This document shows positions 41,664 through 46,540 of a stretch of DNA of 52,277 nucleotides, one piece after another. The DNA comes from Myxococcales bacterium (GTDB lineage: Bacteria > Myxococcota_A > Polyangia > Polyangiales > Houyiibacteriaceae): assembly GCA_029863605.1 (NCBI GenBank), contig JAOTVB010000022.1, forward strand, positions 1 to 52,277. Reading direction: 5' to 3'. Both the position numbers and the translations under genes were made by a program. The first letter of the stretch is position 1. Each line of letters starts with the position of its first letter. The notes beneath the pieces were generated by a model. The model was not told where the DNA came from. It did not search any database and was given only the letters and a program-made list of their open reading frames with translations.

Positions 41664-42491
41664 GTGACCGTCCGTTTCTACAAGTACGAAGGGCTCGGGA
41701 ACGACTTCCTGATCATCGAGCGGGAGGATTTGGGGGACGTACAGTTGACGACCAAGCAGGCGATCGCGCTTTGCGATCGTCATCTCGGGATTGGGGCTGA
41801 CGGTGTGTTGGTGCTCGACGTGAGCGCGCCGTCGATGCATGTCATCAATTCCGACGGATCGGTGCCCGAAATGTGCGGAAACGGCATCCGCTGTGCGGCG
41901 CTTCATCTCGCGCGTCGCGCCGAGCGACAGAACCTCGAAGTCGACATCGACACCGTAGCCGGTCCACAGCCCTGTCGCGTCGAGAGCCATGGACGCACCG
42001 GGTCGGTCACCGTGCAGATGAGGGGCGCGTCACTCTCGCCTGGCGACATCGGGTTGCGAAGCGAAGCGCCTTGGCTCGACGAGCCGCTCCGAGTGGCGAA
42101 CCACGACCTTCACGTCACGGCGGTCTCGATGGGCAATCCGCACGCGGTGACCTTCGACGATGTCGGAGAAGCTCGCTTCGAGCTTGGCGACGCGCTCCAG
42201 CATGACCCGCGCTTCTCAAACGGCGTCAATGTAGGCTTCGTCTCGGAGCGTGAAGGCAACGCAATGCGCCTCGATGTCCTCGAGCGTGGTGCGGGTTGGA
42301 CCCAAGCTTGCGGAACGGGTGCCGCTGCCGCTGCGGTCGCCGCAGTGGAGACGGGGCGTACCAAACGAGGTGCGCCGCTGAGCATTCGGTTGCCCGGTGG
42401 CGCGCTGACGATCACCTCGCGTGAGATCGGTCAACCGGTGCAAATGGAGGGCCCGGCGCGCTTCGTATTTCAGGGTGAAGTCGAGATCTAG
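41664..42491 (+). CDS. dapF: Diaminopimelate epimerase
   Basis: Converts LL- to meso-diaminopimelate for lysine and peptidoglycan synthesis (cytoplasm). 275 aa. Both catalytic Cys are present: C71 in PEMCGNGIRCAAL and C216 in QACGTGAAAAAVAAV. Other family motifs: FYKYEGLGNDFLIIE at the start, GADGVLVL, NSDGS, SMGNPHAVTF and NVGFVSE. GTG 41664 places the family start motif at residue 5; an ATG at 41640 would add eight residues and cannot be excluded. A nearby L,D-transpeptidase gene upstream also serves peptidoglycan. No lysine-pathway partner gene is adjacent. Confidence 0.96.
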   Translation: MTVRFYKYEGLGNDFLIIEREDLGDVQLTTKQAIALCDRHLGIGADGVLVLDVSAPSMHVINSDGSVPEMCGNGIRCAALHLARRAERQNLEVDIDTVAGPQPCRVESHGRTGSVTVQMRGASLSPGDIGLRSEAPWLDEPLRVANHDLHVTAVSMGNPHAVTFDDVGEARFELGDALQHDPRFSNGVNVGFVSEREGNAMRLDVLERGAGWTQACGTGAAAAAVAAVETGRTKRGAPLSIRLPGGALTITSREIGQPVQMEGPARFVFQGEVEI

Positions 42492-42513: not shown

Positions 42514-44655
42514 ATGCGTTACCTTACGCCGATGTCGCGTAGCTTATTTTTCGCCTTGTCGGCCTTCGTTGTCACTTTGATTGCGCTCGGATGCGGAGGC
42601 GACTCTGGAGGACCTGGACCAGACGTGCTCGGCCGGTGCGCCGAGTTCGACGAGCTTCGCCAGCCCTTCTTCGGCGACACTCACATTCATACCGTGCTCT
42701 CCCTCGACGCGAACCTTCAGGGCACGCGCCCAGGGCCGATGGAGGCGTATGCATTCGCGAAGGGCACGCCGATCGGCGTTCAACCTTATGACGCAGACGG
42801 CAATCCCCTGCGGACGGCCACGCCCGATCCCGATCGCCGGCTCGATTTCGTGATGCTGAGCGATCACGCGGAGTATTTGGGGACCATCGCGGTGTGCAAC
42901 GATCCCAACTCGCCCGCCTACGACCGGCCCGCCGATCCGGACGCTAGGCCCGACGACGTCGGCTGCATCGAATACCGAACCACGAACCCAGCTGAGATCA
43001 CCGCCGTCTTTCGCCGACTCAATGCGCTGACCGCCCTCGCCCCCGACGACACCCGCTACCCGGCGCTCTGCGGCGATTCTGGCACCGAATGTATCGAGGC
43101 GGGCATCGACGTTTGGGCTCAGGTGCAAGACGCTGCAGAAGCCGCCTACGACCGCTCCGACAGTTGCGATTTCACCTCTTTCGTCGGCTATGAGTGGAGC
43201 GCCGGGCCATTGACCGCGAACCTTCATCGCAACGTCATGTTCCGCAACGACGTCGTGCCCGAGCTCCCGATCAGTTATTTCGACGAGCCCTATGTCGAGG
43301 ACTTGTGGGCCGGGTTGCGCGACGAATGCATCGACACCGACACGGGCTGCGATGCGCTCGCCATTCCACACAACTCGAACCTGGCGGCCGGCACCTTCTT
43401 CGAAAGGCCCGACAAGAACGGAAACCCCTTCGATGCGAGCTACGCTCAACTTCGGCACGACCTCGAGCCGGTGATCGAGATCTTTCAGCACAAGGGCGCC
43501 TCGGAGTGCCTTCCGGGCCAAGCGATTTCCGACGAGCTTTGTGGCTTCGAAATCCTCCCTTATGCGAACCTCGCCAACGTCAACCTGCAGGACCTGCAGC
43601 TATTCGGCGACGCCGATCCCCGCGATTTCGTTCGTGGGGCCTTGGGTGAGGGCATGAAGCTCGAGCTCGAGCTCGGAGTGAACCCATTTCAACACGGCAT
43701 CATCTCCTCGACCGACACGCACATCGCTGCGCCTGGCTACGACAACGAAAAGACATTCCTTGGTCACGGCGGTGCCGGCCAGCCCAATCGCGAACTTCCT
43801 GCTCCTGAGGGTTTCCCGGACGTCCAATACCTCAACCCGGGTGGCCCGGCGGGGGTTTGGGCCGAGGAGAACTCACGCAATGCCATCTTCGAAGCGTTCC
43901 GCCGAAGAGAGGTGTTTGGCACGAGCGGGCCGCGCATCGTGCCGCGCGTCTTTGGCGGTTGGGATTTGCCTACGGACCTTTGTGACTCCCCAGAGCTCTC
44001 GCGAATCGGTTATGAGCAAGGCGTGCCAATGGGAGGCGAGCTCAGCGATCCCCCTGACGGGTCCATGCCGAAGTTCCTCGTCTCGGCCAAGCAGGATCCG
44101 ATGAGCGCGCCGCTTCAGCGCATTCAGATCATCAAGGGCTGGCTCGAGGGAGGGGATTATCGGGTTCAGGTCTTCGACTACGTCGCCGGCGACCCGAACA
44201 ACACCGCCAGCGTCGACCTCGCGACCTGCGAGCCGCAGGGCACCGGTGCCGCAGACCTGTGTACAGTTTGGGAAGACGAGAGCTTCGACCCCACGCAGCC
44301 CGCTTACTACTACGTACGCGTGATCGAGAACCCGACCTGCCGGTGGACCGCCCAGCAGTGCGTCGACGCCAACTACGACTGCGACAACCCAACGACCCAG
44401 TTCGACTTCGATTGCTGTGACCCGACGGCCGGTCTCAACGTAGCCTTCTGTGACGATGTCGCAGCAGGGCTCACGGGAGGCGAGGCGGCGTGCTGTCGGA
44501 CGGACAACCCAACCTCCTCGACAAGCGTTTCGTTTTGCAATGACGTCGCGGGGACCTTGCCGCCCGCCGACGGACAGTGCTGCCGGCCACGCCTCGAGGG
44601 CGCGATCCAAGAGCGCGCCTGGACCTCGCCGATTTGGTATCAACCCCCTAGTTGA
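42514..44655 (+). CDS. DUF3604-family lipoprotein (PHP-like metal-dependent hydrolase)
   Basis: Predicted surface or periplasmic lipoprotein of 713 aa, family DUF3604, related to the PHP metallophosphoesterase fold. Lipobox ALG-C27. Metal-binding-type motifs: FFGDTHIHTVLS (D55, H57, H59), MLSDHAEYLG, AIPHNSN, IEIFQHKGASEC, and ISSTDTHIAAPG. These spaced His/Asp are the expected multi-metal site. The last ~85 residues are Cys-rich, with two imperfect repeats (NVAFCDDVAAGLTGGEAACC and VSFCNDVAGTLPPADGQCC). ATG 42514 lies 22 bases after dapF; the frame is open further up but within dapF. The stop overlaps the parvulin start (TGATG). Substrate unknown. Confidence 0.88.
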   Translation: MRYLTPMSRSLFFALSAFVVTLIALGCGGDSGGPGPDVLGRCAEFDELRQPFFGDTHIHTVLSLDANLQGTRPGPMEAYAFAKGTPIGVQPYDADGNPLRTATPDPDRRLDFVMLSDHAEYLGTIAVCNDPNSPAYDRPADPDARPDDVGCIEYRTTNPAEITAVFRRLNALTALAPDDTRYPALCGDSGTECIEAGIDVWAQVQDAAEAAYDRSDSCDFTSFVGYEWSAGPLTANLHRNVMFRNDVVPELPISYFDEPYVEDLWAGLRDECIDTDTGCDALAIPHNSNLAAGTFFERPDKNGNPFDASYAQLRHDLEPVIEIFQHKGASECLPGQAISDELCGFEILPYANLANVNLQDLQLFGDADPRDFVRGALGEGMKLELELGVNPFQHGIISSTDTHIAAPGYDNEKTFLGHGGAGQPNRELPAPEGFPDVQYLNPGGPAGVWAEENSRNAIFEAFRRREVFGTSGPRIVPRVFGGWDLPTDLCDSPELSRIGYEQGVPMGGELSDPPDGSMPKFLVSAKQDPMSAPLQRIQIIKGWLEGGDYRVQVFDYVAGDPNNTASVDLATCEPQGTGAADLCTVWEDESFDPTQPAYYYVRVIENPTCRWTAQQCVDANYDCDNPTTQFDFDCCDPTAGLNVAFCDDVAAGLTGGEAACCRTDNPTSSTSVSFCNDVAGTLPPADGQCCRPRLEGAIQERAWTSPIWYQPPS

Positions 44656-45533
44656 TGCTCCGTCCACTCCTTCATTTTTTTCTGATCGGCGCGCTGCTGT
44701 TCGCCGGCAAAATCGTCTTCGAGAGTCGTGATGGGGACCCGCCCGAGATCACCGTTCGGATGCCCGCCGATTCTACCGAGGCTCAGGTCGAAAAGGAGAT
44801 CCGAAATCAGATCCTCCTCAACGAGGCGCGGCGTTACGGGTGGTACCGCACAGACCCAATCGTATTCACTCACCTCGTTCGCAACATGCGATTCATCGAG
44901 CCGGACACCGGCGACGACGACCTCACGCTTTTCAAGCGCGCCCTGCAGATGAACATGCAGGAGCATGACCCGGTCGTACGCGCGCGGCTGCTCTACCGCG
45001 CACGCGAAGCCCTGACGTATGTGCCCGAAGACCGAATGCCTACCCGAGAGGAGCTCGAAGAGCACCGCGCCGCCCATGAAGACCGGTTCGAACGCGAGGG
45101 AAAGGTGCGCTTCGAGCACGTGTTCTTGAGCGGCACCAAACGCGGAGAAGCCCTGGCTTCGGACGCGGTTGCGATGAGCGCGCAGCTAGAAGCCCTCGGC
45201 AACGCGGCTCCGACGGGGCGCGGCGATCCGCTTCCCGGCCTCCGCGCCGTGCAATCGTCGACGGTTTCGCAGATTAGAGCGAGCTATGGAGAAGAGCTCG
45301 CCGGGGTCATCGATGAGGGCGTGGTCGGATCGTGGCGCGGCCCTGTTCCTTCGGTTTATGGAGTCCACTTCGTTCGCGTGCTCGAAAAAGAGCCATCCTC
45401 GGTCCCGGCGTTGACGATCATCGAGGCCGAGGTCCGCGCCGATCTGCTCTCGGAGATCAAGGAAGAGCTCAGCAAAGAGCGGATGGAAGCGCTTCGAAAC
45501 GCCTACGTCGTCCACGTCGAGAGGATCCCTTGA
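44655..45533 (+). CDS. Membrane-anchored parvulin-type peptidyl-prolyl isomerase
   Basis: Predicted PpiC-like folding factor (292 aa) facing the periplasm. N-terminal membrane anchor (MLRPLLHFFLIGALLFAGKIVF). Residues ~30-120 are a SurA-like helical region (QVEKEIRNQILLNEARRYGW, LVRNMRFIEP), then a parvulin-like domain ~125-255 with RFEHVFLSGT, GDPLPGL and GSWRGPVPSVYGVHFVRVLE, the last being the typical parvulin 'G-P-v-x-S-x-x-G-x-H-x-v-x-v' ending. C-terminal helix EIKEELSKERMEALRNAYVVHVE. ATG follows by one-base overlap the DUF3604 stop, and its stop overlaps HupE in the same way. It may fold the metal protein upstream. Confidence 0.85.
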   Translation: MLRPLLHFFLIGALLFAGKIVFESRDGDPPEITVRMPADSTEAQVEKEIRNQILLNEARRYGWYRTDPIVFTHLVRNMRFIEPDTGDDDLTLFKRALQMNMQEHDPVVRARLLYRAREALTYVPEDRMPTREELEEHRAAHEDRFEREGKVRFEHVFLSGTKRGEALASDAVAMSAQLEALGNAAPTGRGDPLPGLRAVQSSTVSQIRASYGEELAGVIDEGVVGSWRGPVPSVYGVHFVRVLEKEPSSVPALTIIEAEVRADLLSEIKEELSKERMEALRNAYVVHVERIP

Positions 45534-46540
45534 TGCGACGCGCCTTACTTTTGATCGCCGTCGCCGCGTTCTTCGTCGTGGGGCTCGGACAAGCGTCGGC
45601 CCATCCCCTTGCTCCCGCAGTGCTTTCATTCACGCCAGGCCCTGACGAAGGGATGATAACCATGACGTGGCGCGCGCCCGTCAAACGACCGAAGGGCCAA
45701 GCCCTCGAGCCCCGCGTTCCCGAAGGTTGCCAGCCGCTCGGACCCACCGAGCGTCGGCTCACCGAGAACAACACCGCCTTCATCGATACGACGCTCCTGC
45801 GTTGCGACCCACCCGATCTCGTCGGCTCCATGATTGGCGTCGATGGCCTCTCCGACTCGACCGTGAACGTCGTCGTGCGCATCGGCAGGCCTGACGGATC
45901 CGTCGATCACTCGATCATCGATGCGCGGGCGCCATCGCTCACCATCGTCGCGCCGGAAGATGAGACCCATTCGTTCTATGACTATCTGACGCTCGGCATC
46001 GCGCACTTGGTGACGGGTTGGGACCACATGACGTTCGTCATCGGTCTTCTCATACTCTTTGGGTGGCATCGTCGGTTGATCGCCGCCGTCACCGCGTTCA
46101 CCCTAGGGCACAGCCTCACGCTCGCGCTCTCGATTCTCGGTATCTTGACCGTGCCCCAGGCGTGGGTGGAAGCCCTGATCGCCATGACGATCGTCGTGCT
46201 CGCGCTCGAGATTCAATCCGGCGAGCACGGACCGGTCTGGAAACACCCGTGGTCGCTGCCCGCAGCCCTCGGCCTGCTTCACGGCCTCGGATTCGCCTCG
46301 GTGCTGTTCGATGCGGGCCTTCCCGCCGACGAGATTCCTCTCGCTCTCTTCGGCTTCAATCTCGGGCTCGAGGTTGGGCAGTTGGGCATTATCGCCGCCG
46401 CGTGGTTGGTCTACAGGGCCTTCCGCGGGGCCATGCCGACGGCGTGGCGCGATGATCGCACCATCCCTGCATACGCGATCGGCTCCCTCGCCGCGTTTTG
46501 GGTGATCGAACGTGCGCTTGCTGCCTTCGGGATCCTATAG
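45533..46540 (+). CDS. HupE/UreJ-family membrane protein
   Basis: Predicted nickel/cobalt-type transporter of the HupE/UreJ family (335 aa). Signal peptide ~1-23 (cleavage after ASA-H). An exposed domain of ~140 residues precedes six membrane helices (from ~150). Family motifs: HLVTGWDHMTF (HX5DH, the metal motif), FTLGHSLTLALS, LEIQSGEH and LLHGLGFASVL. The N-terminal extracytoplasmic domain is larger than in classical HupE. ATG 45533 overlaps the parvulin stop by one base. The three-gene set DUF3604-parvulin-HupE looks like a single functional unit; metal delivery to the DUF3604 protein is an inference. Confidence 0.9.
   Translation: MRRALLLIAVAAFFVVGLGQASAHPLAPAVLSFTPGPDEGMITMTWRAPVKRPKGQALEPRVPEGCQPLGPTERRLTENNTAFIDTTLLRCDPPDLVGSMIGVDGLSDSTVNVVVRIGRPDGSVDHSIIDARAPSLTIVAPEDETHSFYDYLTLGIAHLVTGWDHMTFVIGLLILFGWHRRLIAAVTAFTLGHSLTLALSILGILTVPQAWVEALIAMTIVVLALEIQSGEHGPVWKHPWSLPAALGLLHGLGFASVLFDAGLPADEIPLALFGFNLGLEVGQLGIIAAAWLVYRAFRGAMPTAWRDDRTIPAYAIGSLAAFWVIERALAAFGIL

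Follow-up and report, generated by a model that had tools for sequence, protein, structure and literature searches.

We analysed a 52,277-nucleotide stretch of DNA (hereafter the window; contig JAOTVB010000022.1 of a Myxococcales bacterium, assembly GCA_029863605.1) and focused on three consecutive genes, encoding a DUF3604 protein, a parvulin and a permease of the HupE_UreJ_2 family. Given the recurrence of this trio in many distant bacteria, the three genes probably form one working unit. We propose, with a probability of roughly 0.45, that the trio is a conserved cell-envelope module, in which the parvulin and HupE act as a helper pair that services its usual partner, an exported PHP-fold DUF3604 metallohydrolase. 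The comparisons presented below establish co-inheritance of the genes, conservation of their overlaps, the predicted folds and invariance of the metal-ligand residues. The locus is composed of the following features:

42514..44655, forward strand: DUF3604 protein of 713 residues, predicted to be an exported PHP-fold metallohydrolase with a C-terminal beta-sandwich (PF12228; AlphaFold2 model)
44655..45533, forward strand: membrane-anchored parvulin (Rotamase_2) of 292 residues (PF13145 just under the cut-off; matches to SurA and PrsA)
45533..46540, forward strand: HupE_UreJ_2 permease of 335 residues with an external anglerase/ZrgA-like domain (PF13795)
44653..44657, forward strand: TGATG overlap of the DUF3604 and parvulin genes (TGA 44653-44655 shares a base with ATG 44655-44657)
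45531..45535, forward strand: TGATG overlap of the parvulin and HupE genes (TGA 45531-45533 shares a base with ATG 45533-45535)

The initial annotation had described three genes linked by TGATG overlaps, and the coordinates and both junctions proved to be exact. To judge from the sequence, these overlaps make translational coupling likely.

Recurrence of the trio

We counted the neighbours of HupE genes in two samples. The first comprised 57 genomes drawn evenly from the phylum Myxococcota, 40 of them with PF13795, and gave 68 HupE genes from 35 genomes. This count omits the window's own genome, G017, G023, G035 and G074; G000 and G017 are included in the genome table, which shows short stretches of G023 (one of two loci) and G035 with no parvulin there. 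The second sample comprised 94 genomes of Gammaproteobacteria, 27 with a match, and gave 38 HupE genes, read from 37 regions in 25 genomes; its seed genome (G038) enters the genome table and not the gene count. Contig ends left less than 3 kb of flank at 14 of the 68 and 14 of the 38 loci.

In Myxococcota a parvulin gene was found beside 28 HupE genes, a DUF3604 gene beside 17 and both beside 16; the corresponding numbers for Gammaproteobacteria were 6, 5 and 5. For the pooled 106 HupE genes we observed both partners at 21, parvulin only at 13, DUF3604 only at one and neither at 71 (Fisher test, p = 2e-12; the rows are related, and p overstates their independence). Thus DUF3604 was near 21 of 34 parvulin-HupE pairs and near 1 of 72 HupE genes lacking parvulin. 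The subset of 78 loci with full flanks gave a similar table (both 18, parvulin only 8, DUF3604 only 1, neither 51). The single case of DUF3604 without parvulin (L241) lies on the opposite strand and, with 17.1 bits, falls short of the cut-off (20.4). Therefore DUF3604 accompanies HupE practically only when parvulin is present.

The association extends to whole genomes. DUF3604 was present anywhere in 20 of 21 genomes with the pair and in 18 of 130 without it (14/15 and 12/42, respectively, for Myxococcota; 6/6 and 6/88 for Gammaproteobacteria), and in G100 the pair and DUF3604 lie on different contigs. Therefore the pair predicts DUF3604 even when the genes are not adjacent, while DUF3604 does not predict the pair. 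This is the pattern of helpers and a client, not of independent neighbours.

Overlapping genes are common at these loci. A stop/start overlap of 1 or 4 bases was possible at 65 of 73 parvulin-to-HupE junctions, 35 of 47 DUF3604-to-parvulin junctions and 5 of 9 HupE-to-DUF3604 junctions. Across relatives the gene order changes and the overlaps persist. The arrangements seen were DUF3604-parvulin-HupE, parvulin-HupE-DUF3604, HupE-DUF3604-parvulin and a divergent DUF3604 gene with parvulin-HupE.

The own genome of the window holds HupE_UreJ_2 in three places, and all three are within trios. The order is DUF3604-parvulin-HupE in the window and on contig C17 (L050), and HupE-DUF3604-parvulin on contig C24 (L051). 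The trio of L050 consists of a divergent DUF3604 gene and a divergent SurA_N/Rotamase_2 parvulin beside its HupE. Other DUF3604 genes of this genome (C28 twice, C40, C22) had neither partner in the stretches read. A first scan of genome contigs with the window HupE as query gave no confirmed match.

According to the initial annotation, the model would be refuted if DUF3604 genes rarely adjoined the other two in other genomes; the trio recurs widely. In 37 related genomes at least 46 of 73 compared HupE places were within 5 kb of a DUF3604 place among the matches listed (second halves of split matches were merged by hand, and part of the weak DUF3604 tail was omitted). In a scan of named genomes centred on DUF3604, with 80 of 585 relatives kept, the order DUF3604-parvulin-HupE was found at 21 of 80 loci; the carriers included Fontimonas thermophila, two Sinimarinibacterium, Hydrocarboniphaga daqingensis, Algiphilus, Solimonas and numerous Myxococcota. 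DUF3604 stood alone at many of the remaining loci, those of Halieaceae among them.

We built trees by a quick method. In the HupE tree (116 rows) all parvulin-associated rows fell within two clades, each with trios. Clade I, which holds the window, has 61 rows and a support of 99 (43 trios, 10 pairs, 2 doubtful pairs, 5 solo genes, 1 unscored); clade II, which holds L050, has 16 rows and a support of 100 (6 trios, 6 pairs, 3 solo genes, 1 unscored). The trio label required at least 15 changes in the DUF3604 tree (121 rows), and thus the association was gained or lost repeatedly.

Plasmids carry the trio as well. A DUF3604 relative was found in 79 plasmid records and a relative of the Sinorhizobium meliloti parvulin in 78. 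Among the matches listed (60 of each), 43 records were common to both, and in all 43 the two genes were at most 5 kb apart. The trio was present in 12 of 14 annotated plasmid regions read: S. meliloti (two), Pseudoalteromonas donghaensis, Rhizobium indicum, Sinorhizobium sp. C101, Rhizobium sp. Pop5, two Ruegeria, Rhodobacter sp. CZR27, Neorhizobium petrolearium, Roseibium aggregatum and Rhizobium acidisoli. The SC52 region had two DUF3604 genes alone, with the missing parts on another plasmid of the strain, and Rhodobacteraceae M382 had parvulin-HupE alone on one plasmid and DUF3604 on another. The trio of S. meliloti USDA1021 is flanked by conjugation genes on a plasmid typed as conjugative.

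In the window the upstream neighbour of the DUF3604 gene is dapF, which ends at 42491 and leaves a gap of 22 bases; downstream of HupE lies a gene on the opposite strand with no Pfam match. Clustering of neighbours for a further partner gene returned small recurrent sets only (DUF4331 in 5 loci, SDR, kinases). A different clade of HupE_UreJ_2 recurs next to DUF4331-like proteins, mostly together with a TPR-like protein (L067, L222, L226, L265, L276).

Several single loci were of separate interest. On the minus strand of L311 (5896-6882), scored in the Gammaproteobacteria sample as having neither partner, one frame runs from the start of a DUF3604 protein, with its lipobox, into the end of a HupE_UreJ_2 protein; an internal deletion in an operon running from DUF3604 to HupE probably left this chimera behind, or it is an assembly error. 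At L235 (7903-10069, minus strand) the place of DUF3604 is taken by an arginase-family gene that overlaps the parvulin-HupE pair and whose product has a signal-like N-terminus, a hint that the pair may have clients among other metalloenzymes. L235 is one of the 13 pairs without adjacent DUF3604, and Pfam was run on part of the neighbours of those pairs. In L050 (1864-4841) the second-type trio is directly followed by genes of PhoX-like and PhoD-like exported phosphatases. On several plasmids of rhizobia and Ruegeria (L321, L323, L324, L326, L328) genes for adenylate/guanylate cyclases are found close to the trio. Two Ruegeria trios adjoin TonB/ExbB/ExbD genes, and one pair adjoins a nickel/peptide ABC transporter.

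Predicted properties of the three proteins

The DUF3604 protein of the window matched PF12228 with E = 1.1e-163. Its AlphaFold2 model (mean pLDDT 81.7, built from 29 sequences) was compared with PDB structures and matched the PHP proteins 3e38 (Z = 15.6) and 2anu (Z = 14.3), followed by the Pol III PHP domain (Z = 8.5) and RNase AM (Z = 7.8); unrelated folds began at Z = 3.6. A sequence search of the PDB gave no detectable match. The residues of interest are listed below:

42682..42690, forward strand: H57-x-H59, first PHP metal motif (H in 108/108 and 12/12 aligned rows)
42862..42867, forward strand: D117-H118, second PHP metal motif (invariant in 109 and 12 rows)
43714..43722, forward strand: D401-x-H403, last PHP metal motif (invariant in 108 and 12 rows)
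42592..42594, forward strand: C27, candidate lipid-attachment cysteine after the signal sequence or hydrophobic stretch (non-canonical lipobox A-L-G-C; invariant in 7 aligned DUF3604 proteins)

H57, H59, D117, H118, E227, H238, H286, D401 and H403 were constant in all aligned rows of the 121, the divergent clade included. In a comparison of sequence order only, they follow the PHP-type order HxH, DH, E, H, H, DxH. The ligands of trinuclear PHP sites, for instance in YcdX, are arranged in this order. The model thus predicts a PHP metallo-phosphoesterase fold with an invariant PHP-type ligand set, which agrees with the earlier suggestion of a metalloenzyme with a likely multi-metal site. Such an enzyme would presumably hydrolyse phosphoesters. 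Fold and order of metal motifs are common to DUF3604 and the PHP phosphoesterases (3e38 BVU_3505, 2anu TM0559, Pol III PHP, RNase AM). Unlike them, the DUF3604 protein appears to be exported, is cysteine-rich, has a C-terminal beta-sandwich and lacks a detectable sequence match in the PDB.

Signal sequences and many conserved cysteines suggest that the proteins of the module are exported. The description of DUF3604 as a lipoprotein held in part: it is plausible for the copy in the window, given C27, but among the 43 readable N-termini of DUF3604 proteins at HupE loci just 21 passed a crude lipobox test. DUF3604 is also greatly expanded in G048, G052, G056, G064, G078, G088 and the genus of the window, with up to approximately 20 matched places per genome.

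The window parvulin scored 26.2 bits against PF13145 Rotamase_2 (cut-off 27), and 25 of 26 aligned relatives matched this family at E of 0.001 or less. The profile of the family retrieved SurA, PrsA and HP_0175 from the PDB. In most relatives the first active-site position is H or Q. Rows L081 and L101 were omitted from the final alignment, and row L073 was omitted from alignment A3 because of a stop within its stretch. The relatives and the SurA/PrsA matches support its assignment as a parvulin, predicted to be membrane-tethered, and proteins of the trio may be the clients that it folds. It shares a probable Rotamase_2 domain and the N-terminal hydrophobic anchor with parvulins of the SurA/PrsA/PpiD type. 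It differs from them in being short, with a single parvulin domain, and in that its gene overlaps the HupE gene.

The HupE protein matched PF13795 HupE_UreJ_2 with E = 1.6e-39 (135.5 bits, curated cut-off 24.5), and its structure model had a pLDDT of 87.1 with 20 sequences. Two of its sites were followed in the alignment:

45602..45604, forward strand: H24, predicted first residue of the mature protein (His1) after A-S-A (H in 113/116 HupE rows; cleavage predicted by eye)
46004..46027, forward strand: H158-x5-D164-H165, membrane metal motif (HX5DH in 115/116 rows, one gap)

The pair C66/C91 was widely kept among the HupE rows. The HX5DH motif is presumably shared with the nickel permease HupE of Rhizobium, which differs in its hydrogenase context and in having no large outer domain.

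With VIA-align, the outer beta-sandwich of the model (residues 24-141) resembled ZrgA (Z = 9.2) and PA4063 (Z = 8.6). On residues 1-157 of the crystallised copper- and nickel-binding anglerase Ang-1 (9gce) the same segment gave Z = 7.4 (3.4 Å, 108 residues), which is under the decisive value of 8; this alignment begins at window H24 and His1 of Ang-1. Foldseek alone returned nothing under E = 0.001 for the model, and the HupE profile gave only weak PsaK matches among PDB sequences, none to 9gce. Judging from the model, the outer domain is of the kind named anglerase in PMC12537917. The metal-transporter-family protein with an extra external domain foreseen in the initial annotation can thus be described as HupE_UreJ_2 with an Ang-1/ZrgA-like outer domain. 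Permeases of the HupE/UreJ-2 type with an outer domain have been in print since 2025; according to that text, RbAng-1a binds Cu (dissociation constant, Kd, 74 nM) and Ni (Kd 220 nM), and Ang-1/Ang-2 are proposed to pass metal into the permease (PMC12537917). The systems share the PF13795 permease and an external beta-sandwich that starts with a histidine after the signal peptide and is followed by the membrane part (PMC12537917, 9gce). The neighbours named there are DUF4198, IndA, PfkB or a metallophosphatase, and the words 'isomerase' and 'DUF3604' are absent from the main text; unlike those loci, the window locus has a parvulin and a PHP enzyme attached. The zinc-binding periplasmic proteins ZrgA (Vibrio) and PA4063 have the fold of the HupE outer domain but are separate proteins with no permease fusion.

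Possible functions of the trio

In the proposed module the tethered parvulin would fold the cysteine-rich DUF3604 hydrolase as it leaves the Sec translocon, and at the Sec exit it may also fold the disulphide-bearing outer domain of HupE. HupE, through its outer domain with the N-terminal histidine, would handle a transition metal at the inner membrane, and this metal would be one that the DUF3604 enzyme needs or works on. A more specific version, which we hold to be unlikely, makes parvulin-HupE a machine devoted to the metallation and folding of exported metallohydrolases. On the outer side of the inner membrane the permease would move or hold a transition metal, and its domain with the N-terminal histidine would hand the metal to a client held open by the parvulin; the clients would chiefly be DUF3604/PHP enzymes, joined at one locus or more by an arginase-family protein.

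That the partners fold and metallate an exported enzyme had been suggested in the initial annotation. The results are compatible with this model and partly strengthen it, because the pair almost never occurs without DUF3604 and DUF3604 often occurs without the pair. Several observations weigh against our proposal. One genome, G075, contains the pair but lacks any match to DUF3604. Of the 130 sampled genomes that lack the pair, 18 have DUF3604, and G014 holds 12 DUF3604 places and no HupE; therefore the pair is not generally required by DUF3604. At single loci parvulin tracks HupE more closely than DUF3604, with 13 pairs lacking DUF3604 against one converse case; L105 is the sole locus with DUF3604 and parvulin that lacks HupE and lies away from a contig end. 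We found no metal riboswitch at the gathering score in 16 sources, just tRNA and a SAM riboswitch. Finally, PMC12537917, citing Brito 2010, describes HupE-family proteins as importers, and therefore a periplasmic enzyme could be loaded only by a route that is unproven.

Import is central to the alternative that the trio scavenges metal or phosphate, which we regard as possible but doubtful. Here the PHP enzyme would cleave an outer phosphoester or metal-binding compound, HupE would use its His1 domain to capture the metal so released and would import it, and the parvulin would merely fold the exported parts. The metal feed proposed for Ang-1/Ang-2 and the Cu and Ni binding of RbAng-1a (PMC12537917, main text) are in line with this, as are the likeness of the outer domain to the zinc proteins ZrgA and PA4063, the PhoD-like and PhoX-like phosphatases flanking the type II trio of the own genome (L050), and the TonB/ExbB/ExbD genes and the nickel/peptide ABC transporter found by Ruegeria trios and one pair, respectively. 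A metal importer should, however, serve without a hydrolase, but among the 21 genomes with the pair just one has no DUF3604, and HupE_UreJ_2 without parvulin is common (72 of 106) and untied to DUF3604. The pattern of helpers and client thus favours servicing, and the described import by HupE favours scavenging.

It is unlikely, in our estimate, that parvulin-HupE is a self-contained metal unit tied to DUF3604 through shared regulation or ecology only. Although 13 of 34 pairs have no adjacent DUF3604, and the DUF3604 and HupE trees are patchy and of different shape, the conserved DUF3604 overlaps (35/47 and 5/9) and re-association in varied orders exceed what co-regulation needs. A neighbourhood that reflects shared descent or chance with no functional link is hardly credible and was already disfavoured. 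The nearest relatives of the window (L070-L074) do share further neighbours, such as dapF and ruv genes, but trios are spread over two distinct clades of HupE, no fewer than four gene orders, several phyla and also plasmids, and the Fisher value of 2e-12 points the same way, with the reservation that the rows are related and are not independent samples. We rejected chance on the basis of the recurrence in relatives and in the HupE-centred samples.

Relation to published work

The permease type with an outer domain and the PHP fold were known already; for the trio and the fold assignment of DUF3604 no description was found in the literature searched, which covered few subscription papers. In that literature DUF3604 appeared only as a table row in a Chlamydia paper, and PF12228 gave nothing. 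Among titles and beginnings of abstracts, nothing relevant was found on HupE with peptidyl-prolyl or parvulin; HupE with SurA and periplasmic returned none.

In summary, it is poorly understood how exported metalloenzymes obtain the right metal outside the cytoplasm. The trio, which is small, mobile and widespread, combines a metal permease with a folding helper and a metallohydrolase, and it makes the question of metal supply directly testable, as some of its carriers are genetically tractable rhizobia. DUF3604, a family with almost no literature found, would thereby gain a first predicted fold and a context.

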